A stretch of 64,000 bases of DNA from a virus, in the IMG/VR virus record IMGVR_UViG_3300022751_000016, positions 1 to 64,000 of that record. The stretch is one strand, 5' to 3'. The position numbers and the translations under genes were made by a program. Positions 380-49,695 of this stretch are shown piece after piece. Positions within the stretch are counted from its first letter, which is position 1. Every line of letters starts with the position of its first letter. Below the pieces are notes generated by a model. The model saw nothing but the letters and a program-made list of their open reading frames with translations, did no database searches and was not told where the DNA came from.

Positions 380-432
380 CAAAAATACTTAATATTAACT
401 ATATTATAAAATTGGTTATTTTCTGTGTAATT
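380..432 (-). promoter_or_regulatory. Dyad-class promoter for the partial virion gene
   Basis: Read on the minus strand, the -7 box is TATTTTTG (387-380), the -33 box is TTTT (411-408), and the spacing is exactly 20. Two bases further upstream lies AATTAC-N7-ATAACC (432-414). The same dyad sits at the same offset at five other promoters in the window. Confidence 0.75.
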
Positions 433-435
433 AAA

Positions 436-457
436 AAGGGAACATTTCTGCTCCCTT
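436..457 (-). terminator. Intrinsic terminator of the fibre operon
   Basis: On the minus strand the stem AAGGGA / TCCCTT has a ten-base loop and is followed by TTTAATT. It lies 38 bases after the stop of the 432-residue fibre protein and just before the next promoter. Confidence 0.75.
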
Positions 458-494
458 CTTCACCAAAAATAATAGGAAAAACCACTAAACCTAT

Positions 495-1793
495 TTATAA
501 ATCTATTATTAACTCAAAAGGACTACTAAGCATTCCATCATCTTCAACTAAATTTCCATTTGTAGACCTTGTTTTAAATTGTAATGCATTAGCATTTAAT
601 CTAATGATATAAATACTTTTATTTTCAACAGTGGGGGTAATTTTAAAGTTAGCGTTAACTGGGATTGTAAAACTAGTGTTCATATTATAAACTCCTGCGC
701 TTAATCTGGTAAAACTAGAAATTACCCCCCCTGTAGTATTTTTAGATGTTGCGAATGTTGGGTTACTTGAACTATTTTGTGTTATCAATCCTCTTAAAAT
801 CAGAGTATCTGCTGTGATAGAATTACTTACTATATAGGGAGAGGCTATTGTTCCAGAACCTGTTATAGTTGTTCCAGAACCTGCTGTAATCTTTGTTTCG
901 CTACCATCAGCTATTGTGTTAACCGACGATATAGTGAAATTTGGATATGTTCCTGAAATAGTAGTAGCTCCTCCTTGTGTAAGTGTTACCGTTTGGTCTG
1001 GCGCAGTGTTGTTGAATGTTGTCCCTACCAAGGACATTGCCGTTCCTGCTGAGTAAGTTGTGTTAACTGAGTTTATTGTATAAGGAGTTGCTGTTGTTCC
1101 ATTACCTGTAACACTTGTATTACTTCCTGCTGTTATCTTTGTTTCTCCTCCATCAGAGGATACTACATAGGGATTTAAAATAGTTCCCGTTCCTGTAACC
1201 ACTCCATTCAATCCTGCTATAATTTTAGTTTCGCTCCCATCGGGAATTATAGCTTCTGGCACACTTAGATTTATATCATCTACTCCTTGTGTTATTGTAA
1301 CTGAACCATCTGTAGATTTTATTTTTCTTAAGTTAAATTGAGTGTTGTCTCCTACAACTGTAGAATTTTTATACACCTCTGCTCCTGTTCCTGTATTTAA
1401 AGTAGAGTAAGTTTTTTGATTAGCTTCTATGAATGTATCTAAAGCTGTTTCGTTTACTAGAATTGTTACAGTGTCTGTCCCTTGTGTTATATTTATTAAT
1501 CCACTTCCAACTAAAGTTCTTAACTCTTTTTTGCCGAGATTTGATACACCTTTATATATTTGAGAACCTGTTCCGACATTAATTAAGTTGAAGAAGTTAG
1601 TTGTTGACTCAAACCTATCACATATGTAAGCATCAAGCTGTTTTAATACCTCGTTCAAACTCTGCCCTTTTGGAATATTAGAGCAAGGTAAATCCTCAGT
1701 AAAATTTTCTACACATTCTGACTTGATTAAGATAGGGCAAGCACAACTGACTGTCTTACAAGTTCCTTTACATTTATTTTTACAATTACACAT
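495..1793 (-). CDS. Tail-fibre-like protein with Cys-rich N-terminus
   Basis: 432 residues. The first 20 residues carry seven cysteines (MCNCKNKCKGTCKTVSCACP), followed by a segment with PKGQSLNEVLKQLDAYIC that resembles the 115-residue protein at 4321-4668. The body is beta-rich with about four repeats built on GSETKITAGS-TVTGTGT-PYVVS, typical of phage fibre shafts of Bacteroidota. The C-terminal 90 residues look like a globular tip. I infer a receptor-binding or accessory fibre whose N-terminal Cys module is a docking domain. Last gene of the fibre operon. Confidence 0.75.
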   Translation of the reverse strand: MCNCKNKCKGTCKTVSCACPILIKSECVENFTEDLPCSNIPKGQSLNEVLKQLDAYICDRFESTTNFFNLINVGTGSQIYKGVSNLGKKELRTLVGSGLINITQGTDTVTILVNETALDTFIEANQKTYSTLNTGTGAEVYKNSTVVGDNTQFNLRKIKSTDGSVTITQGVDDINLSVPEAIIPDGSETKIIAGLNGVVTGTGTILNPYVVSSDGGETKITAGSNTSVTGNGTTATPYTINSVNTTYSAGTAMSLVGTTFNNTAPDQTVTLTQGGATTISGTYPNFTISSVNTIADGSETKITAGSGTTITGSGTIASPYIVSNSITADTLILRGLITQNSSSNPTFATSKNTTGGVISSFTRLSAGVYNMNTSFTIPVNANFKITPTVENKSIYIIRLNANALQFKTRSTNGNLVEDDGMLSSPFELIIDL

Positions 1794-1802
1794 ATTTTAT
1801 TT

Positions 1803-3086
1803 TTAATTATATACTTCTATTCTTATAGAATTGTTAAATAGTTTATCATCTGAATCTGTAAATGGTACAGTACCGTTATCCTGAGTTTTTACAACAATTA
1901 TATCGTCACTATTTCTGAATATTGAATAACTGCCAGTTGGACTAGATGGTGTTATTGATAAATGAGTTTTATCTACGGGAAAAGCTCCTACTAATGTCCC
2001 CCAATACATGCCTGTAGTAATTCTAGTCCAAACAATATTTCCAATAGAATTTTCTAAAGTATTAACTATTGGATTATCTGTGTCTGTTTGATTTAAGGTT
2101 GCTGAATATACTGTATAAGGTCTTAGTTGGTCTGTTGTTGCTAAAGTGTAACTTCCTGCTAATTTTGTAGGGTTTAAGTTATACACAGCTATTCCTGTAG
2201 CTACCCTATCTGTCATTATAAACTCATTCACCGCTCCAGAACTATTGCCAAATATTGTTACAATTCCCCCTAAATTATTAATTCCCGCAGAAATATTTTG
2301 GTCTAACTGATTTATAACTAATCTAGTTGGAGTTGTTTGTAATACTTGTGTAGAGTCTCCAGACAATAAATTCATTACTTTATTAACAGAAGTATTATTT
2401 ACCCCTAATACACTATCTAGACCTTGAGTACTTCCCCCAACTACTATATCCCCTGTACCAACAATAGACTCACCATTAATTGTTTTGAAGTCAGAGGTTG
2501 TAGCTAAGGTATAATCCTCTCCTTCTTGTTTAGCTGGAAAAAATAAATTTGTATTGGCTATAGGGTCTTTTATTAGAACATTGGTAAGGTTACCACTGCT
2601 TATATCTAGTTTTTCAAAAACTAAACCTTGTGACACATTCAGTTTTATTGTGTGACTAAATTCTTCCGATACTACTGCCATAGCTAAAATAGGTTCTCCA
2701 TTATTATCCTTACTAGCTATTAATCCACCTTGAGATGTAGTTCCATCTATTATAGCCATCCCCCCTTTATCAATAACACCCTGTAAATCCTGAGAACCTC
2801 CTAAAGAATTAATCACGTAAGGTTGTTCTTCTGTACCTATTCCATTGATTTCAACATTTTCTCCTGCTTCTATTTTTGTTGCGGAAATTTCACTGATTTG
2901 TTGGTCTTTAAAGATAAGAGATGAAGTTATAGCTGCATTTATTTCAGTTTGGGTTGAGCCCGCACTTATGTCGAGATATGTAATAGCATTTGGAGTTTGG
3001 ATACAGTCTGTAGAAATATAATTATTTCCACATCCTTCTTCTACTTGCTCTATTGCTGTTCCTGTATAACAATTTTTTATATCCAT
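1803..3086 (-). CDS. Tail-fibre-like protein, paralogue A
   Basis: 427 residues. Residues 1-65 are closely similar to the N-terminus of the next gene upstream: both have YISTxCIQTPNAIxYL and FKDQQISEI. A shaft repeat (AGENVEINGIGTEEQPYVINS) follows, then a different C-terminal half. The shared head plus divergent tail is the usual pattern of fibres that dock at the same site but carry different tips. It abuts 3086-4324 with a one-base overlap, so translation is probably coupled. Confidence 0.75.
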   Translation of the reverse strand: MDIKNCYTGTAIEQVEEGCGNNYISTDCIQTPNAITYLDISAGSTQTEINAAITSSLIFKDQQISEISATKIEAGENVEINGIGTEEQPYVINSLGGSQDLQGVIDKGGMAIIDGTTSQGGLIASKDNNGEPILAMAVVSEEFSHTIKLNVSQGLVFEKLDISSGNLTNVLIKDPIANTNLFFPAKQEGEDYTLATTSDFKTINGESIVGTGDIVVGGSTQGLDSVLGVNNTSVNKVMNLLSGDSTQVLQTTPTRLVINQLDQNISAGINNLGGIVTIFGNSSGAVNEFIMTDRVATGIAVYNLNPTKLAGSYTLATTDQLRPYTVYSATLNQTDTDNPIVNTLENSIGNIVWTRITTGMYWGTLVGAFPVDKTHLSITPSSPTGSYSIFRNSDDIIVVKTQDNGTVPFTDSDDKLFNNSIRIEVYN

Positions 3087-4668: not shown

Positions 4669-4670
4669 AG

Positions 4671-13427: not shown

Positions 13428-14387
13428 TTATTGTTTTTCTTTTTCTACTGCCTCTGCAACTTTGATTTTTAAATCTTTGTCTTTAATGACTCTGGCAGTT
13501 GCATCTTTCAAGTTACCTCCTAATACAGTTCCATTCAAATAAAGTTCTCCGTATTCTTCGGTAATTACTCTAGAGCGTCTCAACTGTGTTAATATTGCAA
13601 AAGTTTCAAATTCTTGTTTTCCTTTTGGAGTGTTGCTTTGTTTCTTAGCTTCCAAAAATCTTTTAATATTATTAGAGCCTGATTTCTTATCTTCTAGGAA
13701 CTCCATCACAATTCCTGTAATAGTTTTATCGTCTAGTTTTCTATTTGAAATTACTCCAATGTATTCTAGGATATTGAAAAGCAACTCTTTATTATTATGT
13801 AATAAAGTATAGAAGTTTCCAATTGCTTCTGCTTTTTCGTATTGTTTTTGTTCTTTAAGACTTACAGCAGCTTCTTTATTTACAATGCAATATTTTGCTT
13901 TACTCGCAAACGGTTTGCTTTTATCTTCTGGTCGAACCACATGCATATTTAAAACAGCAATATACAGTTCTAAAGCGTCTTTTTGGTCTTTTGTGTTGAA
14001 AACTTTTCCGTTGTAAATATCTCCGCCGAAATTATCCCAAAATTCATTGTTTGATTGTCGATAGTCTAATATATTTTCTCCCATAATACTTTCATATGGT
14101 TCTACTATATTACTTACAAGAGCTTCAACTTTTGTATTTATATCCTCTCTGTTCATTCCTTCATAACAAGGGGAAGTTGGATAGAATCCTGTGTCCCATA
14201 CTCTTTTATTGTCATCAAAATGACAGGGAGCTGATTCTTTTATACCCTTCATCAAGAGCTTTGATGTTTCATATTTAATAAATCCATCTGGGGCATCTAA
14301 ATCTGGCTTAGGTATTACTTGATACAAAGTATCTGATTTTATTTCAATTCCATTAATCTCTAATGAGAATCCTTTTTCTTTTGACAT
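13428..14387 (-). CDS. Virion-associated protein, 319 residues
   Basis: I start at the ATG at 14387 (MSKEKGFSLEING). A longer frame opens at a TTG at 14417, but that TTG is the last three bases of the -7 box TATATTTG, so it cannot be in the message. The protein is charged, mostly helical in the second half, ending in a coiled coil. Not recognised; position and its own dyad-class promoter support a late structural or assembly role. Confidence 0.7.
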   Translation of the reverse strand: MSKEKGFSLEINGIEIKSDTLYQVIPKPDLDAPDGFIKYETSKLLMKGIKESAPCHFDDNKRVWDTGFYPTSPCYEGMNREDINTKVEALVSNIVEPYESIMGENILDYRQSNNEFWDNFGGDIYNGKVFNTKDQKDALELYIAVLNMHVVRPEDKSKPFASKAKYCIVNKEAAVSLKEQKQYEKAEAIGNFYTLLHNNKELLFNILEYIGVISNRKLDDKTITGIVMEFLEDKKSGSNNIKRFLEAKKQSNTPKGKQEFETFAILTQLRRSRVITEEYGELYLNGTVLGGNLKDATARVIKDKDLKIKVAEAVEKEKQ

Positions 14388-14414: not shown

Positions 14415-14467
14415 CAAATATACACCTATAAAAATGTTCTTGCAAATTGATTACTTTTTGTGTAATC
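14415..14467 (-). promoter_or_regulatory. Dyad-class promoter, best copy
   Basis: Minus strand: perfect inverted repeat GATTAC-N7-GTAATC (14467-14449), then AA, TTTG (-33), exactly 20 bases, TATATTTG (-7, 14422-14415). It overlaps the last codon of the homing-nuclease gene, so the nuclease gene ends right at the promoter of the virion gene it precedes. Confidence 0.8.
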
Positions 14468-15989
14468 AAGATTCCATTTTTATTCGTCCGCAATCATATA
14501 TTCTATGTGGCTCTATTTTATCAGGAATCTCTTCGTTTTCTTTATATCTTGTATTACTATAAAAATAATAATATTTAGGTTTTGTCTCTTCTATAATTTT
14601 AAATCCTAATTTTTGATAGTATTTATAATCCAACCATCTTTTATCTTCTTCTACTATTATATTAGCATGATTAGAACTGTAATGATTAAATAACTTGTCT
14701 ACTCTTACTTCAGTATTTAATTTTGAGGATATTGTTTTTATTATGTTGTCTTCGGCAATTAACACTTGAATCAAATCTTCATTATTGTACAAGCCTAACC
14801 TTACACTTCCTTGATAGTTTTCTAGAGAATTACGGTTTAAGAATTCTTCTGTTTGTTCTTCAGTTACTTCTTTTACTTCTAGGTTGTAATCTTCTATAAT
14901 GTGTTTATATATTCCTAAATATCCTAGAATTTTAGATTTTACTACTTCCTCTTTATTTACCCATTCATCTTCAAAAACGTGAACCAAATCGTATCCTTTC
15001 TTATTAGCATTTACTGTTTTATTCAGATGATAGTCATTATCTATAAATTTTTCAGAATGCCAGTATAATCCATCATATTCTATTGCTAATTTCTTACTTT
15101 CAACAACTATATCTAACTCCTGTCTTCCTAATATACTTCTGTTGGATTGTTGTGTTTCAAAATGTTCTGACAAGAAGTTATATAATACGTTTTCTTTTCT
15201 AGAACTATTGTTTATACATTTTGGGCAGCCTTTTCCTGATAAGTGATTGCTTACCCTTTGTTCAAAATCTCCGTGACTTCTGCAAGTTATTGTTATATTA
15301 CTTTTAGCATTTTTATAAATAGATTTAGTGTAATCAAATTTAAAATCATGTACAATATCTGCTTTATTAACGAAATCTTGTTTAGAGTAACTCTTACTTT
15401 CTGCTGTTTTTAACCTTCCACATTCAGGACACCCGTGACCTCTGGTATGGTTTATTGCCGTTTGTTTAAATATCCCATGAATTGGACAACTAATGTTTAC
15501 AAAATCTATCCTATTTTTCCAATTTAAATCAGGATAACTGTAGAAATTATTATGAACCTTGTTGAATTCCTCTACTTGTTTTTCTATTGGAATTCTACTG
15601 TTTATTTTCCCATTTTCTACGCCACACTTTTTACATCCACTTCTAAGATGGTCAGATGCTCTCTGTGAGAATTCACCATGTATAGGGCATTGTATGTATA
15701 TGACATCTGATAATCTAGTTAAAGTTGTATTTGGATAAGAGTAGAAGTTTTCGTGTTTATCTTTCACCAATTCTAAAAAATTCTCCAACCCTATTTGATT
15801 TTTCATCGACATTCTGTCAAAACCACACCTGTTACAGCCTGATTTATAGTGACTGTCTGGAGTTTGTTGAAATACTCCGTGAATTGGGCAAATTATATCT
15901 ACTTTATCTTTTGCTCTGGTATAAACAACTTTACTATAATCATAAAAACTATTATGCTTACTATTTGCCTTCTCGTAATTAAATCCCAT
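14466..15989 (-). CDS. Free-standing homing endonuclease, zinc-repeat plus PDDEXK-type nuclease
   Basis: 507 residues. Residues 1-260 carry four repeats of about 62 residues of the form CPIHGxFxQ-H-GCxxCG, each a small zinc-binding (DUF723-like) DNA-binding module. The C-terminal part has RQELDIVVESKKLAIEYDGLYWHS, a very-short-patch/PDDEXK-like nuclease core (D, E...K, E), then VHVFEDEW, typical of phage homing endonucleases. Inserted between the major capsid gene and the 319-residue virion gene, with its own promoter. It should cut homologous phage lacking the gene and drive its spread. Confidence 0.82.
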   Translation of the reverse strand: MGFNYEKANSKHNSFYDYSKVVYTRAKDKVDIICPIHGVFQQTPDSHYKSGCNRCGFDRMSMKNQIGLENFLELVKDKHENFYSYPNTTLTRLSDVIYIQCPIHGEFSQRASDHLRSGCKKCGVENGKINSRIPIEKQVEEFNKVHNNFYSYPDLNWKNRIDFVNISCPIHGIFKQTAINHTRGHGCPECGRLKTAESKSYSKQDFVNKADIVHDFKFDYTKSIYKNAKSNITITCRSHGDFEQRVSNHLSGKGCPKCINNSSRKENVLYNFLSEHFETQQSNRSILGRQELDIVVESKKLAIEYDGLYWHSEKFIDNDYHLNKTVNANKKGYDLVHVFEDEWVNKEEVVKSKILGYLGIYKHIIEDYNLEVKEVTEEQTEEFLNRNSLENYQGSVRLGLYNNEDLIQVLIAEDNIIKTISSKLNTEVRVDKLFNHYSSNHANIIVEEDKRWLDYKYYQKLGFKIIEETKPKYYYFYSNTRYKENEEIPDKIEPHRIYDCGRIKMES

Positions 15990-16079: not shown

Positions 16080-17774
16080 TTAGTTATAACCTTTAGCTGC
16101 AATCTCGTCTAATTCAAGCATTACAAAGCGTGATGGGTCTGCAATCCAGACAGCGCTGTTGTTATAGCAAAAATATTCTTGCCCCATTTCTTTAAAACTT
16201 GCTACAATATCTGTTGCTGTTCTACTGTCATATCGGCCTGTTCTTCTACCCCAATAAACATATTCTCCTTCAGGTTTAACCATGTATACATTGGCTCTAG
16301 AATTTCCACCTTCAATAAGTTTTGTACCTTTTGGCATTTGTTTATTATTAGAATACTCTTGGTCTAAAGCATCCCAGATAATTACAGAGTAAGCTGTTTG
16401 GTCGTAACCATTTTCATGCATACCTGACAATCTTCTGTCTGCAAGTCCCATGTGATTCAATGAAGTATCTTCAACGATTTCAACATATCCAATTCCAGGT
16501 AAGAATACATTCGTAAAACGGATAACTTTTAAAGTCAAGTTATACAAATCTCCAGACACTGGATTACTAGGTAATACTCTATCTGCTCCAAGCAAATTAG
16601 ATACCATATTCAATTGTTCTTTTACCTCTGCGTCAAAAATTTGTAGAATGTTATTATATGCTGGAGTACCTGCTTTTAATTTCAATCTTCTTTCAATAAC
16701 TGGTAATGTAGGGTTAGCTCTAAATACGTAGTCAGCCATATCTTTAATATGTTCTTTAGTGATACCGCCTTTTCTACCGTATTTTTTAACAAAACCTCTT
16801 CTTAATTGCGGCCATAAACCTTCGTTGTAACGAGTAGTTCCATTTGCTGATTTAATCACCCCTCCTTTTTGGAACATGTGAGATGCTGCTGTCAATCTGT
16901 CTAATTCACGTAAAGTTAAAAATTCCATTACAGAACCTACTCTACCTGTTTTTTTGATTGGATTTCCTGCTTTATCTGTATCCATCATTACCATCAATTC
17001 TCCGATATTATTACTCTCAGACATAATGTCATCAATATAATCTTGAGTTGCTGCTATACCTCCTGCCAATCTCACAGAATCAGCTTTACCTGTTACGAAA
17101 GATTCAGCTCCTCTAGGACTACCTAGTTGAAATTCGCAAGTCATGTACCCTGTTGATAATGGCATTCTAACTTTTGCAAGTCTTGTTCCAAATTCAGCTA
17201 CACCATGTCCAGTTACAAAATACTGAATACCTTTTGCTAACAATTGTTTTGGATAATATGCGTCTGGGTCTTTTGTATTTAACAAAACTGTATGTTCAAA
17301 TCCATCTGATTTAGCTCTTACAGGTTCTGCTTCTGAAACTACAATTTCTTGTCCTCTATAAGCATCTGCTGTTAGGGTTGTTCCAGGAGCTAGTTCTTCG
17401 TTCAATACAATTTTGAAAGTTGTTTCGTCAATACCCGCGAATTCTTGATGAGACATATCAACCACTGTAATCATTTCGTCTACAGAATCAACTGGTAAAT
17501 CATAAGTGAATCTACCTTCCCATCCATTAACTTCTAAGATACTTTTATTAGCTAATAATTCGTTAGTAATGCTGTACTGATACTTCGTGCGTCCTTGTTG
17601 ACCAAAGAAGGTTTGAAGTTTCATGTGATTTTTTAAAGGGTCTTCTCTATACCATGTATGTAAAGATGCCCAATCTTGGTATCCTCCTCTGTTTTTTAAA
17701 TCCTGCCCTTTCATAAAACCAATTACTTGGTCTCCATTCCTTAGTAAAGGCATATTCGTAGTTTGTACGCTCAT
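16080..17774 (-). CDS. Major capsid protein
   Basis: 564 residues. N-terminal arm with YQDWASLHTWYREDPLKNH, then a long mixed alpha/beta body and a terminal VWIADPSRFVMLELDE. Gene order scaffold then this gene, its size, and the high level of conserved aromatic and glycine positions fit the HK97-fold capsid protein of crAss-like and related podoviruses. Assignment is by position and appearance; no cleaved propeptide is evident because the scaffold is a separate gene. Confidence 0.85.
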   Translation of the reverse strand: MSVQTTNMPLLRNGDQVIGFMKGQDLKNRGGYQDWASLHTWYREDPLKNHMKLQTFFGQQGRTKYQYSITNELLANKSILEVNGWEGRFTYDLPVDSVDEMITVVDMSHQEFAGIDETTFKIVLNEELAPGTTLTADAYRGQEIVVSEAEPVRAKSDGFEHTVLLNTKDPDAYYPKQLLAKGIQYFVTGHGVAEFGTRLAKVRMPLSTGYMTCEFQLGSPRGAESFVTGKADSVRLAGGIAATQDYIDDIMSESNNIGELMVMMDTDKAGNPIKKTGRVGSVMEFLTLRELDRLTAASHMFQKGGVIKSANGTTRYNEGLWPQLRRGFVKKYGRKGGITKEHIKDMADYVFRANPTLPVIERRLKLKAGTPAYNNILQIFDAEVKEQLNMVSNLLGADRVLPSNPVSGDLYNLTLKVIRFTNVFLPGIGYVEIVEDTSLNHMGLADRRLSGMHENGYDQTAYSVIIWDALDQEYSNNKQMPKGTKLIEGGNSRANVYMVKPEGEYVYWGRRTGRYDSRTATDIVASFKEMGQEYFCYNNSAVWIADPSRFVMLELDEIAAKGYN

Positions 17775-17801: not shown

Positions 17802-18866
17802 TTATTTTTTTGGGTAAAAATCTGCCCAGTTATCGTCTGTTTTTTCTACTTTTTCCTGCGCCGTGTTTGTCGCTTTTTTATCTACTGTGCTAATTGTAAT
17901 GAAAGTGTCTAAAGCTGTTTTGTTCTTTACTTTTGCACCTAAAAATTCTTCAAATCCTTTTGGGTCGTTTAGAAATAAATTAAGCTTGCTATAAAATTCT
18001 GGGTCTGCTTTAGCTTTAAAGTATAAACTGTCTGTTTTTGTCAGTCCTTGTTTATCTCTGATTGTTGCCGCGTCAATAAGATTTTTAGAAACTGTATCTT
18101 TTAAGCCAAATTCTTTGTAAGTTTCATTAAGATTTTTTCTGTAGACTTTAGTATCTTCTTCTAATTTCTTAACTTCTTCTTTCTTGGCTTCTAGTTTTGC
18201 ATCAACCATATTAGTGTAAGACTTATTAATCTGTTCTACACATTCTGCTGTTTCTGCATCTAATTTAAAGTCGGATTCCAATTCTTTAATTACATTGGTA
18301 ATAACTTTGTCACTCAGTCCTTGAGCTTTATATTTATGATATACAATATTTCTTTGAATATTAATATCTTCTAAATCTAATCCTTCTAGTGGGTGAACTA
18401 TTTCCGCACTATATTGTAACAGTTCTCTAACATCTCCGCCTAATTTTCTAAGCTCAATTAATTTGATGTCATTTTCGTCTAAATCTTCTGTTGAAATATA
18501 CTTTCCTTTATCTTTCTCAGCTTTTAAGTTTTTCTGTCCTTGTTTTAATTTACTAAAGACATCTTTACTTACATTTTTAAGTTCTGATAAAAGTATTTTT
18601 TCTCCGTCGATTTCTACTTGTCCGTCTTCCCAATCTCCCTCTTCAATAAAGTCTTTAATTAAATCAGAATAAAAATCGTTTCCTACAGGAGTTTCAATTT
18701 TTGTTTCTGGAATTTCTGGTTCTTTAGTTGTTGGTGGAGTTTCTTCGTCTTTCTTTTCTTCAAAAAAGATATCCGTCTCTTGTGGTGTAACTGCTGTTGT
18801 CACTTCACCTGTTGCAAACATATCCTCCAGAGTTGGAGTAATTTGCTCTTGTGTTGTTTCGCTCAT
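17802..18866 (-). CDS. Scaffold-like protein
   Basis: 354 residues, very acidic, Lys/Glu-rich, with an unstructured N-terminus (residues 1-65, Thr/Glu/Pro) and long coiled coils (about 195-260, KLEAKKEEVKKLEEDTKVYR). It lies directly upstream of the major capsid gene. This is the composition and place of capsid scaffolding proteins that are lost from the mature head. Own promoter at 18880-18932. Confidence 0.75.
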   Translation of the reverse strand: MSETTQEQITPTLEDMFATGEVTTAVTPQETDIFFEEKKDEETPPTTKEPEIPETKIETPVGNDFYSDLIKDFIEEGDWEDGQVEIDGEKILLSELKNVSKDVFSKLKQGQKNLKAEKDKGKYISTEDLDENDIKLIELRKLGGDVRELLQYSAEIVHPLEGLDLEDINIQRNIVYHKYKAQGLSDKVITNVIKELESDFKLDAETAECVEQINKSYTNMVDAKLEAKKEEVKKLEEDTKVYRKNLNETYKEFGLKDTVSKNLIDAATIRDKQGLTKTDSLYFKAKADPEFYSKLNLFLNDPKGFEEFLGAKVKNKTALDTFITISTVDKKATNTAQEKVEKTDDNWADFYPKK

Positions 18867-18879: not shown

Positions 18880-18932
18880 TAAAAGTAATTGGTTTATTTT
18901 TAATTCTAAAATTGGTTAGTTCTATAATAATT
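18880..18932 (-). promoter_or_regulatory. Dyad-class promoter of the scaffold/capsid operon
   Basis: Minus strand: AATTAT-N7-CTAACC (degenerate dyad), AA, TTTT, 20 bases, TACTTTTA. The spacing is identical to the other dyad promoters; the dyad half-sites are the weakest of the six. Confidence 0.6.
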
Positions 18933-18974: not shown

Positions 18975-21791
18975 TTAATTTTTATTGATTATCGAGTTTA
19001 TATGTGTTAATTCCTGACCTCTTTCTTTAATATCTAACTCTCTTGCTCTCATAGCTAACTCCTCAGTTTTTACTCCTAGCTTAGCTCTTTCCTGTTCGTC
19101 TTTGTTATTAATATTTATTTCTTTTAATTGTAAGTCAGCTTGTTTAAATGAATTGTTAATACCGTCTCTAGTTGCTTCTATTACGGCATCTGTTCCTTGT
19201 TGACTGAAAGCTTTCTGATTAACTCTGGATGTTGCATCGATTCTTGCTTCTTCTAACTTAGTCATATTCTTTTCATCTTCAATAGATTTTAAGAATGCAT
19301 TCTGATTAGCTTTTTCTTGCACCTGAACCTGTAATTGTTTATCCAACATATCTGATTCATGTTGTCTGGCATCTAGTGTCTCTTGTGCAATACGTTTCTC
19401 ATTTTCTTGCGCCAAAGCTTTCAATTCTATAATGGTGTCACTAGTGAAGATTTCAAATATGTCGTTTACGCTTTGAGTAATTGTATTATTATTTGCAATA
19501 ACTTGTTTTAAAGTTTCAATAATTTTTCTATCTTTACTTCCTGTAACTGCAACTACTCCTAATTTTCTAAGAGGGAAATTTGGGTCTTCTTTCATAATAT
19601 CTAGAAAGTACGTATCTCCGTCTGAGTTTGTAGCAATTGTTGTATTATCTCTATTATTGCTTTGACACCATTGCGCCACTGCTAAATGTACATCTGAAGC
19701 TTTTGCTTTTGCTTCATTCATCTCATCATAAATAGGTGCTAATTGTGCATATGAAGCTTGAGCTCCTTGTTTAACTCCTTCTGCTGTTGTATAATGATTC
19801 GGTTGTCCTAATAATTGTGGTGTAATTCCTATCTGTTCAAATGCTTCTTGTTTATATGCTCTTGCAAGTTCCATTCTATATTGAACCTGAGTACCATATG
19901 TTAAATCTTGTCTTTGAAATGAATTTATAGGCTGGTTTCCTGCTGTATTTTGTTTAGACATATCTACAGGTAATATTCCTGTATTTACCGCCGTATTCAT
20001 TAAATCTAATAAAGCTTCTTCGTGCGTACCATTATCTTTATATTCGGAGGGTAAGTAATTAATATCCATCAAGAAGAATATTCCAATTTCTCTTTCTAAG
20101 ATATCTGTTATTTGGTTCATACAAATGTTGTGAAGCACTTGATATGGAGCCATCTTAGCAGCTAAAGAGCTGGTAATTAATCCTGCGACAGGTAATTGAA
20201 AATTGTAAAAATCACTGTTGGATTTAATTTGAAAATCTAAAGGTCTGATATCTAAATATAAATCACTCTTCAATCTAGAACCTGTAGCTCTAACTTTAAT
20301 ACCTTTCCATATTTCAGGTACGTATTGATAAACTATTGTGTCTTTATATTTAATTAAGTTATTATTTTGTTTAGCTCTTACAATTTCTTCTAATGAAACA
20401 TTTCTAACTTTTTTTATTTCGTTCTCTGTTATATATCCGTCCATTAAATCGTCTGTAACAATCATTTGAACCAGTACTCCTTGCTCATTTTCATGCGTTA
20501 TAAGACCTATTCTTTTGTAAGACCTCCAATATGCTTCTGTAACTTGTAAAAGGTCTGTTCTTACGTCTATGTCACTTCTTTGTTCGCGAGCATATGAAGT
20601 TGTTAAACTAGTTATTCCTGTATTATATTCTGGCAACCAATCTTTAACAGTGTATTCTTCCCCTTCTTTGTTTTTTAAAGTCCTTTCTCCCAGAGGTACT
20701 CCTAAAGCACCTTCGTATTGTTTTAATAAATCGTGGGTGTAGTAGTTTTGAAATGGGACTATGTGGTCTTCTCCAAAACTTTTCTTAACTATATTTGAAA
20801 TAGAACTTCCTCCGCCTCCATAGTCTTCCTCTTGATTCCAATATCTTGAAACACTTTCTTGTTCATCCGCAGTCATTAGATGACCGTAAAGATTTAAAAC
20901 ATCTGAAGCACTGAAAGCATGTGTTCTACCTACAAATTCTCCGTTTTGTGGATATTTAGCGTCTACGTCTTCTGAAAAGAACACTTCTTCTGGTCTCCAA
21001 CTTTCTACAGTGTAGTGGTCAAATCCTATTCTATAATGTCTAAACCATCTTCCTGTTAAAAGCCTGTCAATGAATTCTTGTCTGTCAAGTCCATCTAAAG
21101 AGAAGCGCATTCTATCTTCATTCAAAGTGTTTTGTGCCCACTCTGTAGCTAATACTTTAAAGTTTTTAGCCATGAATATTTCTATCTCATCAGGTGTCAG
21201 AGCTTTTTTCTGCTGTTCTAATTCTTGTTGATATGCTTGATACTCTTCTTCTGTTTCAAATTCATTTCTGGCAGGGTCTATTCCTTTCATTAAAAGGAGT
21301 TTAGTTAACTCGTTCTGCCAAGTCTCTGTTGCATATTGTTGAAGTCTTTCTGTTTTTTCTCGAATAAATTCGTTTGTAGAATATTCATCCTTAGACTCCA
21401 CTCTATAGACATCCTTGAAATCCAAATAGATTCCTAAAAGTGCATTTACAACTATTCCTATAAAATCATAATGCTTGATATACGTAGGCACTCCTTGGTC
21501 TTCTCTAAGAGTTCTAATTTGTGAATCAAACCAAGGCATTTCCTGAAAATCCCCCATACCTGTTCCAGCATAGGTGAATCTTCCTTGTTGCATTTCATAA
21601 TAATCTATAAAGTGTCGGTTTTTAATCCTCTGCCTTTGTCCAATCATTTCTAAATTGTCCATAACAGCCTTCTTCCAAGCTTTATTCTTACGTTTTGTAG
21701 GAATAGACTGATTAACCCATATACCACTATTTATAGTGTTTGCACCTAGTCCGTTAAAAAACGAAAAACCTATATCATTTCCTTGTTCCAT
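18975..21791 (-). CDS. Portal protein
   Basis: 938 residues. The order TerL-portal-scaffold-capsid, the size, and the layout (an alpha/beta body with residues such as MELARAYKQEAFEQIGITPQ in the stem and crown, then a coiled coil from about 800 rich in Gln, Glu and Lys) fit large podovirus portals. A dodecameric ring for DNA entry and exit at the head vertex is known for the family. The long helical C-terminal barrel is longer than in most portals. Confidence 0.85.
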   Translation of the reverse strand: MEQGNDIGFSFFNGLGANTINSGIWVNQSIPTKRKNKAWKKAVMDNLEMIGQRQRIKNRHFIDYYEMQQGRFTYAGTGMGDFQEMPWFDSQIRTLREDQGVPTYIKHYDFIGIVVNALLGIYLDFKDVYRVESKDEYSTNEFIREKTERLQQYATETWQNELTKLLLMKGIDPARNEFETEEEYQAYQQELEQQKKALTPDEIEIFMAKNFKVLATEWAQNTLNEDRMRFSLDGLDRQEFIDRLLTGRWFRHYRIGFDHYTVESWRPEEVFFSEDVDAKYPQNGEFVGRTHAFSASDVLNLYGHLMTADEQESVSRYWNQEEDYGGGGSSISNIVKKSFGEDHIVPFQNYYTHDLLKQYEGALGVPLGERTLKNKEGEEYTVKDWLPEYNTGITSLTTSYAREQRSDIDVRTDLLQVTEAYWRSYKRIGLITHENEQGVLVQMIVTDDLMDGYITENEIKKVRNVSLEEIVRAKQNNNLIKYKDTIVYQYVPEIWKGIKVRATGSRLKSDLYLDIRPLDFQIKSNSDFYNFQLPVAGLITSSLAAKMAPYQVLHNICMNQITDILEREIGIFFLMDINYLPSEYKDNGTHEEALLDLMNTAVNTGILPVDMSKQNTAGNQPINSFQRQDLTYGTQVQYRMELARAYKQEAFEQIGITPQLLGQPNHYTTAEGVKQGAQASYAQLAPIYDEMNEAKAKASDVHLAVAQWCQSNNRDNTTIATNSDGDTYFLDIMKEDPNFPLRKLGVVAVTGSKDRKIIETLKQVIANNNTITQSVNDIFEIFTSDTIIELKALAQENEKRIAQETLDARQHESDMLDKQLQVQVQEKANQNAFLKSIEDEKNMTKLEEARIDATSRVNQKAFSQQGTDAVIEATRDGINNSFKQADLQLKEININNKDEQERAKLGVKTEELAMRARELDIKERGQELTHINSIINKN

Positions 21792-21810: not shown

Positions 21811-21863
21811 CAAAGTTAAGGATATAATACTCATTGTTAAAATTGGTTATTTTCTGTGTAATT
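21811..21863 (-). promoter_or_regulatory. Dyad-class promoter of the portal gene
   Basis: Minus strand: AATTAC-N7-ATAACC (21863-21845), AA, TTTT, 20 bases, TAACTTTG (21818-21811). The dyad and its flanks are identical over more than 20 bases to those upstream of base 375 and, inverted, upstream of 49664. The ATG is 20 bases further on. Confidence 0.75.
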
Positions 21864-21869: not shown

Positions 21870-24485
21870 CTATTTTCTTCTGTAGAATCCTCTTCTTGTG
21901 GATGGGTTGGAGTAGAAGTTTCTGCCAACTTTTGGAGCTTGTTTTACTTCTTCATCGTCTTTTTTTCTAGTCATTCCTTTTGGATAAATATAATTCTTTT
22001 CTAATACGTGTAGTAAACCTACAGCTCCAATATGACCACTTATCCTATCAAAGTTTCCACTATCATTATATCCAATTATTTCTGACAGTAAATGTATATC
22101 ATCTATCGTTTGAACTCTTTTAATAACAACTTTTTCACCTAAATCATTTAGCACTTCTACAGATTCGTCTAAGTAGTTAGCGTACATTGATATTAACTTC
22201 CTTTTACTTTGTTTTGGTGTATAACCCCACTTTCTAGCGTCATTAGTAGTATAGTTTAAAACAGAATTGAAATCAATATGCTTTTCTAAATAAACTTCTT
22301 CTAACCTTAGATTTTCTAAATATGTTTGAAATACTCCTAAATCTTCATTCTCAGGTAATGATATCGCGTTATATGCCTCTAAAAGTAAATGTACTTTTTG
22401 ATTTAATTCTTTATATGTTTTAGGTCTTGCTGCATAAGAAGCTACTAAATATCTACCCATAGGGTCTCCAAATAAAGGGTACTTATATATTCCAACAGTA
22501 CAAACTGAATTTGTTGAGCTTGTAGTTTCCTGTTTATAAAAGTCAATAGATGCAACATACATGTATTTAGGTGGTTTGAAATCAGGAATATCTTCTATAA
22601 TTAAATATGGCGCATCTTGATTATCTCCTGTAAATGGAAATTCTACTAAATCTTTTGTTGAAATTTTGGAAATTATTTTTCCATTGGTATCTTTTATTAA
22701 ATCTCTTCTTCTATCCCATTTTCCAGTTGTAATTAAATATTCTCTATGTTTTACAGCTTCATCATAAACATTACTGAATGGTGATATAGTTGCGCTTAAG
22801 AATACTTCTTCTGGGTCAATAGGGTATTGTACAGTTTCTTGCTGTAGTAGTAGGTTGTCATTTTTGACAGTGTCTCTGTCTTTTTTTAAGACTTCTAAAT
22901 TATGAACCCAATCAGCTTGATGTATTAAAATGGTATCTAGAAATTCAGATTTTATTCCTAAAAACTGCCCAAATGGTCTTACTATTACTTTCAATCCTGT
23001 TTTGTAACTCATTTGGGCAGGGATAAAAGTAGCAAAAGTTCTCCTCTTAAAAGATATAGCTTCTTTTGGTATTTTATTTTCAAAAGTTTCCCAATCCATT
23101 TCTAAAAAATTTAGAGAGCTTGGATTAGCTAAAGCTGCCATTGCATCTCCTGACAATGAAGATTCTCCTCCTGTACCAACACATATAGGAACACACTTCC
23201 ACCTAGTTTTTGTTTCAAAAGAAGGTTTGGCAGCAAGGTAGGATTTCTTCCAGTCAAACTTTCCAATTTCTTCTATTAAATAACAACTTGGAGCTCCCCC
23301 CGCTGTCTTTTGTGTAGATGTAACTTTACCATTTGCTAAGTTTTTCACTAAAAATCTAGAATACTCTACTAAGTTGCTGGAAGATGTTTTTAACCCTAAC
23401 TCTACAGAACCTCCTAACCATTCCTGACTTTGAGTGTAAAGATAAAACGCTTTTGGTACGTACTTCATTGCTGTTTTTATCTTATGCGTTAAATCAATTA
23501 AATCTCCCTCTGAACCAGATGTTATTGTAGAAGAAGAGTTTGGTTTAGTTAGAGCTTTCCAATAACAATATGAAGACATTAAAGTTGATTTACCTAAACG
23601 TCTACTTCCATATAGCATTACTCCTTTATTACCTTCTTTTTCCGCTCGTTTTATATCTTCTACAAATAACCACTCATTATCTCGGAAATCGGGTGTTACA
23701 ATAGGTTCTGAGTTATCTTCCTGTGGTATAGGGGTTTTAAAAAAGTTTAAATGCCAATATAACCAAGGATGTATAAAATATCCATCTACTTCAAAACCTT
23801 TAGTTATTTTCAACCACTCATTCTGCCAAAAAGATATTACAGGTTTTTCCTGTTCCCAATAATGTTTTTTATCATTCCACTCTTTTACTTTACCTTGTTT
23901 ATCTAAATCCTTGTAAAAAGTTTTATCTGTTATTTCTTTAGATAGTTTGAGAGCCTCTGTTGCATCTCTAATATCTGAATTAACAATAGGTAACACTAGA
24001 GCCATTGGTAGAGATGCTATTTGGTCAGAATAGAATCTAAACCTTAAGTCTTCTGATTTTTGATGTATGTTTAACGTATCTAGTTTATCTTGTATTTTTA
24101 TTTTTGCGGTGAATACTTCATCTTGGAATAATATCTCATTATTCTTTAAATCTATTTCTTCCGCGCTATCATCAGATGATTCTACTAATTCATCTAGCTT
24201 ATAATCCAAATATACCTCACACTTGTTTATATGTAAGTTTATTATTTTTAAAGTAGAGTCTATAAACCTTTGTGTTTTCTGTAATTTTCTATCTGCTTCC
24301 GCACCTTTTATAAAAGCAGTTAATCTTGTAACAATAGACAATGTTAAATCATTTTCTTGTTTAAATAATTTTTGCTTTTTTATAGGGTCTTCTTCATTAT
24401 CCCATTTATTACTTTCTATTACAGCTGCATTTCTCTTGAAGTATTCTTTGTGCTGTTTTACGAACTTATCTACAAACTGACTCAT
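21870..24485 (-). CDS. terL: Terminase large subunit
   Basis: 871 residues. ATPase domain: Walker A GSRRLGKS (about 293-300), Walker B CYLIEEIG (about 401-408). C-terminal RNase H-like nuclease begins with YVASIDFY (Asp about 648), with later acidic positions around DDIHLLSEIIGYND. It packages DNA into the prohead through the portal. Longer than typical terminases because of about 270 N-terminal residues. The first four bases overlap the homing-nuclease stop. Confidence 0.93.
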   Translation of the reverse strand: MSQFVDKFVKQHKEYFKRNAAVIESNKWDNEEDPIKKQKLFKQENDLTLSIVTRLTAFIKGAEADRKLQKTQRFIDSTLKIINLHINKCEVYLDYKLDELVESSDDSAEEIDLKNNEILFQDEVFTAKIKIQDKLDTLNIHQKSEDLRFRFYSDQIASLPMALVLPIVNSDIRDATEALKLSKEITDKTFYKDLDKQGKVKEWNDKKHYWEQEKPVISFWQNEWLKITKGFEVDGYFIHPWLYWHLNFFKTPIPQEDNSEPIVTPDFRDNEWLFVEDIKRAEKEGNKGVMLYGSRRLGKSTLMSSYCYWKALTKPNSSSTITSGSEGDLIDLTHKIKTAMKYVPKAFYLYTQSQEWLGGSVELGLKTSSSNLVEYSRFLVKNLANGKVTSTQKTAGGAPSCYLIEEIGKFDWKKSYLAAKPSFETKTRWKCVPICVGTGGESSLSGDAMAALANPSSLNFLEMDWETFENKIPKEAISFKRRTFATFIPAQMSYKTGLKVIVRPFGQFLGIKSEFLDTILIHQADWVHNLEVLKKDRDTVKNDNLLLQQETVQYPIDPEEVFLSATISPFSNVYDEAVKHREYLITTGKWDRRRDLIKDTNGKIISKISTKDLVEFPFTGDNQDAPYLIIEDIPDFKPPKYMYVASIDFYKQETTSSTNSVCTVGIYKYPLFGDPMGRYLVASYAARPKTYKELNQKVHLLLEAYNAISLPENEDLGVFQTYLENLRLEEVYLEKHIDFNSVLNYTTNDARKWGYTPKQSKRKLISMYANYLDESVEVLNDLGEKVVIKRVQTIDDIHLLSEIIGYNDSGNFDRISGHIGAVGLLHVLEKNYIYPKGMTRKKDDEEVKQAPKVGRNFYSNPSTRRGFYRRK

Positions 24486-25651
24486 TTAAGATTTATTATT
24501 TCATTAATAGGTAATGACATTTTATAACATTCTGAATATCCGTTAAATAGTATACCTACTTTGTGTTTGTACTTTTTATATTTTTTATGTAATTTTTCCT
24601 CTAAATCCCATATTGTTGATGCATCGGAGCTGTATAGATATAATTCTTCATAATCATAAGGCATATTATTTTTATTAAATCTTTCAGATAATTCTCTAAA
24701 TGTCTTACCTATTTTGTAAAATGTTTCTTCATCTTTGTTACACTTTATAAGATATAGATGAGTTGTTCTTCCTTTAGCTAAATACACATATCCATCTTTT
24801 GTATGATGATGTTTTCCACTGTATTTGGAATCTTCCATTCTGCACTTAGGGCATGTAAAACCATTTAGATAATTATTTGGTAGGGTTTTAAATTTAGAAT
24901 CATGCTTTTTACATCTTATTTCTAATTCTTTTCTACAACCTTCATATATAGTGTCTGTATAATCATGTAAATCTCCATAAACTTCCACAGATTCTTCAAT
25001 AAATTGTTCAGTCGTTTTCTTTCTTAAAAGGCTATAATTCTCTTCTGCACATTTTGGACATTTCTGTCCGCCTAATCTATTTGTTACGCGTATAGTAAAT
25101 TCATGGTCATGTACAGTACACGTTAAATCTACTTTACCTCTGGAATTAATATCTTTAACTTTAGAGTGGTCTGTTATATCTCCAAACAATTTGACAGATT
25201 CCTCTATAAACAAATCTACATTATTGTATTTAGACTTTAATCTGCATTTAGGACATGCTTGTCCATGTAGTAAATCAAATGGGCGTTTCAAAAATGACCC
25301 GTGTAATTTACATATTAGCTCAACCTCTGTTGTATTGTTTTTATACTCTACTTTAGACGTATCATATAAGTCTCCGTACATCTCTACCAACTCTTCTGAA
25401 AACTTTTCTTTTCCTTTAGAATTTAATTTTGACATTTTATCTTTCTCACAACAATAGGGTACACAACCTTTCTTATGATTCTTTGGAATTATATTAAAAT
25501 ACTTATCATGTTTTTTGCAATATATTTCTACAGGTGTTAAGTTACCAACATAAATCACTCTATCATAACCATAAGCATCTCCATGTTTTTCTTGGAACTG
25601 TTCTATGACTTTTTCTCTAGTTAGTTTATTATGCGCTGTTCTTTTATTCAT
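24482..25651 (-). CDS. Free-standing homing endonuclease, zinc-repeat plus GIY-YIG
   Basis: 389 residues. Four zinc modules (CKKHDKYF, CKLHGSF...CPKC, CTVHDHEF...CPKC, CKKHDSKF...CPKC) related to those of the 507-residue nuclease occupy residues 30-275. The C-terminus (about 290-350) has GYVYLA, YLIKC, FYKIGKTFRELSERF, matching the MUG113/T5orf172 branch of GIY-YIG nucleases. Inserted upstream of terL with a four-base overlap. Confidence 0.82.
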   Translation of the reverse strand: MNKRTAHNKLTREKVIEQFQEKHGDAYGYDRVIYVGNLTPVEIYCKKHDKYFNIIPKNHKKGCVPYCCEKDKMSKLNSKGKEKFSEELVEMYGDLYDTSKVEYKNNTTEVELICKLHGSFLKRPFDLLHGQACPKCRLKSKYNNVDLFIEESVKLFGDITDHSKVKDINSRGKVDLTCTVHDHEFTIRVTNRLGGQKCPKCAEENYSLLRKKTTEQFIEESVEVYGDLHDYTDTIYEGCRKELEIRCKKHDSKFKTLPNNYLNGFTCPKCRMEDSKYSGKHHHTKDGYVYLAKGRTTHLYLIKCNKDEETFYKIGKTFRELSERFNKNNMPYDYEELYLYSSDASTIWDLEEKLHKKYKKYKHKVGILFNGYSECYKMSLPINEIINLK

Positions 25652-27042: not shown

Positions 27043-27403
27043 ATTCTTCTAATTCTAATTGTGAATGTTTTAAATAGGAAAGAAACATACAGTCTTTATT
27101 AAATACATTTGTTATATAATCATATTCTATTGACATTGCCATTTTCTGTACTCTTTCATATCTTCTAATGTGATTGTCAGGTAGTTTTTTTTCTTTTGAA
27201 AATGTTGCCGACTTTCTTGCTCCTTCTAAACTTGTAAATATATATCCTACGTAGGGTAATTCAAATGCAGGGACACTATCTTCTTTAACTTTAATTTCCA
27301 TGTATTCTATTAAGCACCTCAGAAAATCATCCATTTCTTCTGGAGATATTCTTGTTCTGCTTTCACAAGCTTTATTAATTAAATCTTTTCTATACTTTAT
27401 CAT
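27017..27403 (-). CDS. HU/IHF-like DNA-binding candidate
   Basis: 128 residues. The pattern RKDLINKACESRTRISPEEMDDFLRCLIEYMEIKV followed by VPAFELPYVGYIF resembles the two helices and the start of the beta-arm of HU/IHF proteins. crAss-like phages carry IHF-like genes in their structural region. A small terminase subunit is the main alternative. The match is weak and needs a profile search. Confidence 0.5.
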   Translation of the reverse strand: MIKYRKDLINKACESRTRISPEEMDDFLRCLIEYMEIKVKEDSVPAFELPYVGYIFTSLEGARKSATFSKEKKLPDNHIRRYERVQKMAMSIEYDYITNVFNKDCMFLSYLKHSQLELEEYENMQNNT

Positions 27404-27794
27404 CTTTTTCGCAGAATATTGTGTAGAATATTGCTTTCTTATCTTTAGCTAAAAATCTGTTTTTTAATTCCAAAAGTCTTTTATTAACTATTTTCTCTCT
27501 ATAATTTGTGGGATGTTTTTCTAAAAATCCTTTTGTTGTTAGAATGAAGTTTATTTGGTCTAAATGTTTTTCATTCATTTTATTCTCCAGAAGTATTGCC
27601 TTTTTTGTATTTGCATTATACCCAGACTTTAAATATGTTCTTAAAACTACACCTTGTTTATTTGTCAATATTTCTCCAAGTTCTACAATAGAATATATGT
27701 GAATAACTAGATTTAACAGTTCTAAATCATTTGTATATTTGAATTTTGAAAAAAAATGTTTATGAGTTTCAGATGTAAACTTATCTACTGCCAT
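27390..27794 (-). CDS. Helical, possibly winged-helix protein, 134 residues
   Basis: The middle (LTNKQGVVLRTYLKSGYNANTK then INFILTTKGFL) looks like a helix-turn-helix with a following wing. It could be a small terminase subunit or a DNA-binding regulator of the late operon. Overlaps neighbours by 14 and 10 bases. Confidence 0.55.
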   Translation of the reverse strand: MAVDKFTSETHKHFFSKFKYTNDLELLNLVIHIYSIVELGEILTNKQGVVLRTYLKSGYNANTKKAILLENKMNEKHLDQINFILTTKGFLEKHPTNYREKIVNKRLLELKNRFLAKDKKAIFYTIFCEKDDKV

Positions 27795-28484: not shown

Positions 28485-28537
28485 GATTACAGAAAAAGTA
28501 ATTAATTTGGTGGATTGAATTTAAAGTTGTATATTTG
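28485..28537 (+). promoter_or_regulatory. Dyad-class promoter leading into non-coding sequence
   Basis: GATTAC-N7-GTAATT (28485-28503), AA, TTTG, exactly 20 bases, TATATTTG (28530-28537). No credible gene follows for 500 bases. Confidence 0.78.
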
Positions 28538-45827: not shown

Positions 45828-45828
45828 G

Positions 45829-46687: not shown

Positions 46688-46736
46688 ACCTGACCACTTT
46701 ATTAAATAAAAGTAACTTTATCATAAAGCAAAAAAT

Positions 46737-47291: not shown

Positions 47292-47293
47292 TT

Positions 47294-47509: not shown

Positions 47510-47510
47510 A

Positions 47511-48166: not shown

Positions 48167-48384
48167 AACAAGTTAGAAATAGGAGACAGTTGTTTTTAGG
48201 TAAAAAAGTTTGGCATAAAGATGTCTATAACGGCAAAGAACAACTAGAAGTAGTTGGAATAAGATATAATGAAATAGAATTAAAAGGAGACTATTCTGGA
48301 GTAGGGCTAGATAACAGTTCGTGTTGGCTACCTTTAGATGGAGTCCTTGTAGATTCATTGGAAAATAAAGGTGCGGATTTATGA
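48148..48384 (+). CDS. Uncharacterised 78-residue protein
   Basis: I use the ATG at 48148 (MFRNMVEQVRNRRQLFLGKK); a TTG at 48112 would overlap the membrane protein by 55 bases. Beta-rich C-terminal part. Not recognised. Confidence 0.5.
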   Translation: MFRNMVEQVRNRRQLFLGKKVWHKDVYNGKEQLEVVGIRYNEIELKGDYSGVGLDNSSCWLPLDGVLVDSLENKGADL

Positions 48385-48728
48385 CAGAAAATCAAAAACA
48401 ATTAAAAATAGCTTTTGTTAAATCCAATTACGGCGAGACAAAAGGATATAAAGTAATGGAAACGTGGAGTGGCTCTGGAGAGTATAAAGATGAAAATAAT
48501 CTAATAGATAACGTAGAGTTTGAAGCTGAATTACATTACTGCGGATTTTCAAGAGGAAGAAGTAGTTTAAACATAGCTTTGGCAGACCATAGAAAAAGAA
48601 TTATCTACTATTCAGGAATGAGTTTATTAGACGAAGCTTTAAAAGGCGGAATTGTTCAGGGAGATAAAATTACAGGAACATTCTGTTTTAAGAAACAGGG
48701 AACATCAATATTATTACAACAGATATGA
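48381..48728 (+). CDS. Uncharacterised 115-residue protein
   Basis: Beta-rich with Gly turns (KVMETWSGSGEYKDENNLID, CGFSRGRSSLNIALADHR). Not recognised. ATGA overlaps both neighbours. Confidence 0.55.
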   Translation: MTENQKQLKIAFVKSNYGETKGYKVMETWSGSGEYKDENNLIDNVEFEAELHYCGFSRGRSSLNIALADHRKRIIYYSGMSLLDEALKGGIVQGDKITGTFCFKKQGTSILLQQI

Positions 48729-48928
48729 GCATATTAAGTGGGTCAGGAATTAAAGAAAAAGAAACAGTAGGTCAAGAGTTCATTGAATGGGCTGAAAAAT
48801 ATTGGTTATTAGATAAGTTGGTAAAAATAGAAACACCTGATGAATTTGCAGGAGAAAAATGCGATTACGATTATATGCGTAATATTTTCATTGAAAAGAT
48901 AAACAAGATTATTAAAGATAGGTTATAA
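48725..48928 (+). CDS. Uncharacterised 67-residue protein with in-frame downstream extension
   Basis: MSILSGSGIKEKETVGQEFI... acidic, helical. After the TAA at 48926-48928 the same frame stays open for 26 more sense codons (NRYDSGRFSRDDEYIIEEVK... to TAA at 49007) with a charged, coding-like composition. This suggests a recent nonsense mutation or read-through. Confidence 0.55.
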   Translation: MSILSGSGIKEKETVGQEFIEWAEKYWLLDKLVKIETPDEFAGEKCDYDYMRNIFIEKINKIIKDRL

Positions 48929-49025
48929 AATAGATATGACAGTGGAAGATTCAGCAGGGATGACGAATACATAATTGAAGAAGTAAAATCGCGGGTAAAA
49001 AATAATTAAACAAAAATAGAAAAAA

Positions 49026-49298
49026 ATGACATTAGAACAAATCAAAAACAGACAAGAGAGAATTAATGACCAATTATTTGGATTATTAAAAAACACGGAA
49101 AGTGTAGTTTTAACAATTATAGGAGATATCCCTTCAGAAGAGCAAGATTTAAAGTCAGAAACACCCTCAGGACTACTACAAGAAATAAGCGCGTATCAAA
49201 ATAGGACAGAATATTTAATAGAGCAGATTAATCGTTATAATGAGCTTTTAACAAGCCGCACTTATACTCCAGTGGAAGCTGTTTGTCAAGCGAGATAA
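49026..49298 (+). CDS. Uncharacterised helical protein, 90 residues
   Basis: Coiled-coil helices (LEQIKNRQERINDQLFGLLK; QNRTEYLIEQINRYNELL) with a short linker. Resembles small head- or replication-associated coiled-coil proteins in phages; function unknown. Confidence 0.55.
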   Translation: MTLEQIKNRQERINDQLFGLLKNTESVVLTIIGDIPSEEQDLKSETPSGLLQEISAYQNRTEYLIEQINRYNELLTSRTYTPVEAVCQAR

Positions 49299-49354
49299 TA
49301 AAGACACTTCCCTTCAGCCTTAAAAAAGTTGGAGGGATTTAAATAATAAAAACT

Positions 49355-49507
49355 ATGAAAATAAAATACCCAACATTAACTGAGATTAAATATGAAGATT
49401 TATCACAAGAACAGTTGATAGGGTTAAATAATTTATTAAAAATACAGCCGACTACTTCAAAAAGTACAATTATATACATTCCTAAAAATAGGTATTTAAT
49501 ATATTAG
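49355..49507 (+). CDS. Small protein, 50 residues
   Basis: MKIKYPTLTEIKYEDLSQEQ... Not recognised. The next 150 bases to the promoter at 49664 hold no gene. Confidence 0.5.
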   Translation: MKIKYPTLTEIKYEDLSQEQLIGLNNLLKIQPTTSKSTIIYIPKNRYLIY

Positions 49508-49642
49508 ACGTTTTAAGGCAATATTTTTATATAAGTTATAACATTATACCAGAAAACTACAAACGTTTCTTAAAATGCCTAAAAAATAGTAAATTTTAAA
49601 TCATTGAATATATTTATAAACATAATTCGGCGGGAAAAGAAA

Positions 49643-49695
49643 AGTTACACAGAAAATAACCAATTTGCACATAAAACATATAATCACTATATTTA
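49643..49695 (+). promoter_or_regulatory. Dyad-class promoter of the 365-residue homing-nuclease gene
   Basis: AGTTAC-N7-ATAACC (49643-49661), AA, TTTG, exactly 20 bases, TATATTTA (49688-49695). The segment TTACACAGAAAATAACCAAT is identical to the (inverted) copies upstream of 375 and of the portal gene. Confidence 0.75.

Follow-up and report, generated by a model that had tools for sequence, protein, structure and literature searches.

The first 64,000 bases (hereafter the window) of the 142,450-base virus record IMGVR_UViG_3300022751_000016 contain six promoters with an inverted repeat, or dyad (in one of them its right half only), just upstream of the -33 box, which raises the question of which polymerase and which factor read them. 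From the letters of the window alone, an earlier reading (the original prediction) had suggested a phage regulon controlled through this dyad by an activator or a repressor of phage origin. We consider, with a probability of about 0.7, that these promoters form a late class in a crAss-like phage of Bacteroidota, at which the host RNA polymerase would act together with a phage factor bound to the upstream element. The remaining 78 kb of the record were handled as loci L009-L012, and this phage (G000) was compared with eight related genomes or large contigs, taken as stretches, and with a 54.7 kb contig, G014.

The upstream element in this genome

All six 53-base stretches are present at the coordinates and on the strands given in Table 1, and five of them fit RNTTAC-N7-RTAAYY-AA-TTT[GT]-N20-TAnnTTT[AG] exactly. 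The sixth, 18880-18932 (AATTATTATAGAACTAACC), had been included in the RNTTAC-N7-RTAAYY consensus as well; it has in fact lost its left half (AATTAT) and the R of its right half, and retains only TAACC-AATTTT-N20-TACTTTTA. The perfect palindrome announced for the best copy, GATTAC-N7-GTAATC, is located at 14449-14467(-), and the identity over more than 20 bases between three distant copies (412, 21843 and 49643) corresponds to the 22 bases TTACACAGAAAATAACCAATTT. Across the class, the half-sites match each other at 3-6 of 6 positions: the symmetry is approximate, so that dyad is a fair name for the class and an exact one only at 14449-14467. The -33 box is TTTT in about half of the sites and the full TTTG in the other half, and the -7 box ends with TTTA in three sites. 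With the numbering used for Flavobacterium johnsoniae promoters (PMC6847099), the -33 box occupies -36 to -33 and the dyad -57 to -39, with its centre near -48.

The 22-base identity, together with the homing-endonuclease-like genes found behind some copies, could mean that the copies are recent duplicates of a single mobile cassette and have no regulatory role. This identity stops, however, at the -33 box, and the 20-base spacer is constant in length and unrelated in sequence. As the element is moreover still present at orthologous promoters of phages whose proteins are about 40% identical (see below), the cassette idea is largely refuted and we give it almost no weight.

When the dyad with its AA was searched without the promoter, we obtained 10 strand matches in the 142 kb, that is 8 distinct places, two matches being reverse readings of near-palindromes; a first-order Markov model gave a mean of 0.47 and a maximum of 3 in 60 simulated sequences. 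With the promoter included, the genome has 7 matches versus 0 in all 60 simulated genomes, TTT[GT]-N20-TAnnTTT[AG] lying directly behind the AA in 7 of the 8 dyad places. Three of these places are outside the window, at 74859(+), 103533(+) and 132533(-). The first and the last have an exact promoter at the same offset; the promoter at 103533 is present but has a flawed -7 box (TATATTGC). A tenth, weak and degenerate site, at 129115(-), reads TCAC-N7-ATAACC. As had been claimed, other strong promoters lack the dyad (28869, 36952, 38130, 43954, 55799 and more).

The portal of this phage is 37% identical to those of Cellulophaga phages phi17:2 and phi4:1 and 35% identical to that of csAssE-Sib, and its terminase, portal, scaffold-position and capsid genes are homologous to those of crAss-like relatives and arranged in the same order. 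Judged by these comparisons of sequence, the phage is one of the epsilon/Lightbulbvirus-like crAss-like phages. Its virion genes are on the - strand, at 1-28093 and about 104691-142447, and its replication and metabolism genes are on the + strand; the last 100 bases of the 142 kb record recur at 30-129. Late virion operons are preceded by, or contain, six of the genome's sites. The late timing of the class would accord with the functions of these genes and, by analogy, with what the literature describes for crAss-like phages.

The primary sigma factor of Bacteroidota uses the boxes TTTG and TAnnTTTG (PMC6847099), and the core boxes of the sites (TTTG or TTTT at -36 to -33, TAnnTTTG at -12 to -5) fit this consensus. 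Since the core boxes are those of the host, the enzyme is probably the host RNA polymerase. PMC10136315 and PMC8375218 present the late virion genes of phi14:2 and crAss001, which belong to the same wider phage group, as thought to be transcribed by the host polymerase too.

Elements at orthologous late genes of related phages

The same geometry recurs at the same late genes in other species, with letters that differ between lineages. A capsid search with a single protein did not find these relatives; an alignment of three capsids led to 25 loci, and promoter patterns led to additional ones. The element promoter TAAYNNATTTK-N20-TAnnTTT[GA] is present in 10-12 copies in each of G005-G008 and in 5-6 copies in G009 and G015, counts that are not independent because many sites are orthologous pairs. 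A spacer of 20 is almost exclusive for element promoters (10 in this genome, 43 in G005-G008 and 11 in G009/G015; other spacings, 0-3 each). The exact 20-base spacer put forward as a trait of the class is therefore real but not peculiar to it: a second promoter class on the + strand of G005-G008, AAAAAAAG-TTTGGTAGATTAAAA...-TAnnTTTG, also has N20. The fixed spacer thus characterizes the strong promoters of these phages, and what marks the class is the upstream element.

In relatives with about 38-41% protein identity to this phage, element promoters precede the orthologues of gene 1/142031, of the portal, scaffold-position and post-capsid genes and of the large proteins 112180, 118349 and 125284. 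The 380-432 element has an orthologue in G005, G007, G008, G009 and G015, the 14415 and 18880 elements in G005-G008 and the 21811 element in G006-G008; for each of these four, G011 has a lineage-specific element. G005-G008 also have element promoters at the same early/late junction as 28485. Inside the transglycosylase-like frame 132055-133119, the element falls at codon 195-196 in G000, G009 and G015, though the encoded residues differ. The expectation of further copies in the rest of the genome and in relatives was thus borne out, and the class behaves as a late phage regulon in both.

Conservation reaches furthest in the right half with the -33 box (TAAYNNATTTK). In G009/G015 the left half reads TWAA in 10 of 10 sites, at the exact offset of TTAC in this phage. 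An unrooted tree with full support separates G000 and G009/G015 from G005-G008, G013 and G011, so that the two-box form lies on one side; as one of the six alignment blocks used the neighbouring giant protein, the tree serves for this split alone. Hence the dyad as defining mark has to be revised: an upstream element is kept, but the full dyad is less conserved than the right half with the -33 box, and the left half is relettered or weak, depending on the lineage.

Such a contiguous block, kept as one piece in four genomes mostly without the left half, could also be a single longer -33 box. Its reader would then be either a sigma factor of the phage or one that a phage protein has altered, as in sigma appropriation by T4 MotA/AsiA, and the left half would be an accessory contact. 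A weak fold similarity between the protein encoded at 27390-27794 and the MotA activation domain would point in the same direction. The -7 box, however, is still the full host consensus, and the Pfam scan of conserved proteins revealed no sigma-like protein; we hold this explanation to be unlikely.

G011 has no TAAYNNATTTK element. It contains TTTTATYnnC-TTT[GA]-N19-TAnnTTTG at five places, four of them upstream of the portal, scaffold-position, post-capsid and '1' orthologues, and the TTTTATYnnC element at spacer 19 was found in none of the other compared genomes. An unrelated element at orthologous promoters is what one would expect of a phage factor that changes in step with its sites. In phi4:1 (G013), a possible TTWAGG was seen at two sites only.

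A core promoter of the host type, and the frequent borrowing of host regulators by phages, would be compatible with a host regulator (CRP-like or a nucleoid protein) bound to the element. However, a scan of 257 Gb of bacterial sequence, with 84,980 species represented by one genome each, gave three scattered matches (Chitinophaga, Clostridium and Acinetobacter) and showed no host regulon, and another scan of bacterial genome contigs for such a regulon gave 0 matches. Since, in addition, the lettering differs between phage lineages at the same genes, a host regulator is very improbable and the factor is rather of phage origin, as had been proposed.

We also scanned viral contigs. Among 2.9 million of them, an exact scan for TTACANARAAARTAAYYAATTT gave four matches without a correctly placed -7 box, which were taken as chance. 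The full dyad with promoter gave five matches, only one of which is seemingly related (L098/G014, upstream of an HNH-type gene).

A candidate factor and comparison with known late switches

We propose that a phage-encoded, sequence-specific factor would bind -57 to -39, where this phage has two half-sites separated by one helical turn, and would recruit or stabilize the host polymerase late in infection, by which the virion genes would be turned on. The homing-endonuclease-like genes and the untranslated regions that carry the same element would join this late programme.

The original prediction left activation and repression side by side. Since the imperfect palindrome adjoins a host promoter close to consensus, it could serve as an operator to which a phage repressor binds, silencing the late genes until the repressor is removed; half of the sites indeed have the full TTTG box. 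But the element lies wholly upstream of the -33 box, with its centre at about -48, where repressors seldom block; the part nearest to -33 is the most conserved, and the other half of the sites has the weaker TTTT, as expected for activator dependence. A repressor thus seems quite unlikely, and the position of the element favours an activator.

We regard the protein encoded at 27390-27794 as the most promising candidate for a reader of the element, judging by its conservation and predicted fold. All eight relatives have it, close to the boundary between early and late genes, and AlphaFold2 predicts with good confidence (predicted local distance difference test, pLDDT, 82.5) a winged helix in the order H-H-H-H-E-E-H. 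Its best Foldseek matches, which are weak, are to MarR proteins and to the activation domain of T4 MotA. It could alternatively be a packaging protein. A PDB sequence search with this family gave no match, and the 'DNA-binding protein' of csAssE-Sib, tried as a homologue, did not match either. The regulators suggested originally were not supported, a convincing DNA-binding domain being present in none of the three: 28216 has no domain match, 29041 has a weak DUF6945 match only, and the HTH_38 match of 55869 is below threshold. In a Pfam scan of 42 conserved small proteins, no helix-turn-helix family was among the matches listed.

The predicted contact helix of the 27390-27794 family differs between lineages. 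It is conceivable, although we say so tentatively, that each crAss-like phage of this group has its lineage-specific late tag in a constant position ahead of the host -33 box and that this one family of winged-helix activators reads it, with the contact helix and the tag changing together. If true, this would show how phages whose late control is not described in the literature searched turn on their late genes, and would offer a natural series for studying how the specificity of an activator and its regulon changes.

Several observations weigh against late promoters activated by a phage factor. The late-strand promoters 111890 and 112165 lack the element, and the four + strand sites (28485, 49643, 74859 and 103533) are not upstream of virion genes. 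The half-sites are imperfect inverted repeats, which leaves binding by a dimer unproven, and most sites of G005-G008 lack the left half (present at the offset in 7/46 sites, one base further in 12/46). As for the candidate, the similarity of its fold to known activators is weak (E about 0.04), and it occurs in G013 too, a genome with only two possible elements.

Known systems resemble these promoters in part. The late promoters of Mu form a host-polymerase late regulon in which the site of protein C lies beside the -35 box (PMC4461284). Here too a conserved putative activator site abuts the -33 box of several late promoters, but the sequence and the host sigma are different, the activator is a candidate only, and no homologue of C was found, no search aimed at one having been made. 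At T4 middle promoters, the MotA box at -30 replaces the -35 contact, with sigma appropriation by AsiA. The present element is likewise specific to the phage and lies near the -30/-35 region of a host promoter, and its candidate reader recalls the MotA activation domain; this resemblance is weak and one of fold only, and unlike in T4 a -33 TTTG or TTTT is retained downstream of the element. Promoters of T7-type single-subunit polymerases have one contiguous conserved block across the start site and no host boxes; here the spacer is unconserved and a host -7 box is present. Late transcription of N4 depends on the host polymerase and the N4 single-strand binding protein and is not known to be linked to any conserved sequence upstream, whereas such a sequence is present at the late promoters studied here. 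A comparison of crAss-like transcription with N4 appears in PMC10136315.

In the passages of the literature that could be searched, the virion polymerase injected with the DNA explains the early phase of crAss-like phages, whereas for the late phase there is only an assignment to the host polymerase. No late-gene promoter element of crAss-like phages was found in this literature, which included passages of PMC10136315 and PMC8375218, the primary phi14:2 paper being outside the search. As far as sequence comparison can tell, the class would be a kind of activator-dependent late phage promoter with a lineage-specific tag, undescribed for crAss-like phages in the literature searched. The element at orthologous late promoters can serve as a sequence mark by which late genes of uncultured crAss-like phages could be predicted, and its lineage-specific form makes the late switch of these phages directly testable in cultured relatives.

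Targets, untranslated regions and neighbouring genes

Table 1. Promoters of the class in the window, their target genes and the candidate factor
Feature	Coordinates	Strand	Details
Late-class promoter	380..432	-	dyad 414-432, AA 412-413, -33 TTTT 408-411, N20, -7 TATTTTTG 380-387
Late-class promoter, perfect palindrome	14415..14467	-	upstream of 13428-14387 (gene after capsid gene)
Degenerate member; right half, -33, N20 and -7 kept	18880..18932	-	upstream of 17802-18866
Late-class promoter	21811..21863	-	upstream of portal gene 18975-21791
Late-class promoter, divergent early/late junction	28485..28537	+	about 500 gene-free bases downstream
Late-class promoter	49643..49695	+	upstream of homing-endonuclease-like gene with stable leader hairpin
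Gene at 375, target of 380-432	runs past contig end	-	sequence position
Portal protein, target of 21811-21863	18975..21791	-	homology
Scaffold-position protein, target of 18880-18932	17802..18866	-	capsid gene 16080-17774 next
Conserved protein after capsid gene, target of 14415-14467	13428..14387	-	
Homing-endonuclease-like protein, target of 49643	49824..50921	+	weak NUMOD4 match
Conserved winged-helix protein, candidate reader of the element	27390..27794	-	conservation and predicted fold

The leader of the homing-endonuclease-like gene, 49700-49823, has a fold far more stable than its shuffles (z -3.5). Genes of this kind or of the HNH type also stand behind element promoters in G007, which has a homologue of 49824-50921, and in G014 and G015, which have other HNH-like genes. 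In G014 and G015 a similar gap of 150-160 bases separates the element promoter from the HNH-type gene.

The 28485 site opens onto a non-coding stretch at the junction. The non-coding RNA proposed as its target found no support, as we detected neither a stable fold (z-score +0.9) nor an Rfam match. The 74859 site precedes an 850-base stretch without a reading frame of at least 50 residues. Within this frame-free stretch (L009:10912-11766, genome 74912-75766), we observed a terminator-like hairpin near 75035 and no meaningful Rfam match. The dyad at 103533 precedes a short frame, L010:19706-19831 (genome 103706-103831), which starts with MCQTKVCTKCGIDKSTSEF... and resembles the zinc-binding start of an HNH endonuclease, apparently as a remnant. 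An Rfam search of the window, of L009/L010 and of the junction gave no match.

At the early/late junction of the relatives, back-to-back element promoters share a central TTAAC..GTTAA palindrome (G005 29444/29469, G007 32737/32762, G006 13424/13449 and G008 77181/77206). The junction of G005-G008 also contains a conserved structured RNA of about 300 bases (L048:9550-9860, L055:12850-13150, L071:17295-17620 and L091:13540-13850), with 65 predicted pairs, 18 of which have changes on both sides among four sequences only; in L048 and L055 this RNA has no Rfam match.

When a virion RNA polymerase was looked for by a Pfam scan of five large proteins, made with no accompanying fold search, no match was obtained. 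Two giant proteins of the late region, L012:10053-16691 (2212 residues, no Pfam match) and L011:8180-14308 (2042 residues), are candidates for a virion RNA polymerase or for ejected cargo. Finally, two HNH endonuclease genes are inserted among the late genes, one at 24482-25651, just upstream of the terminase gene, and one at 14466-15989, after the capsid gene; the latter sits upstream of the 14415 promoter, which is retained for the next gene.

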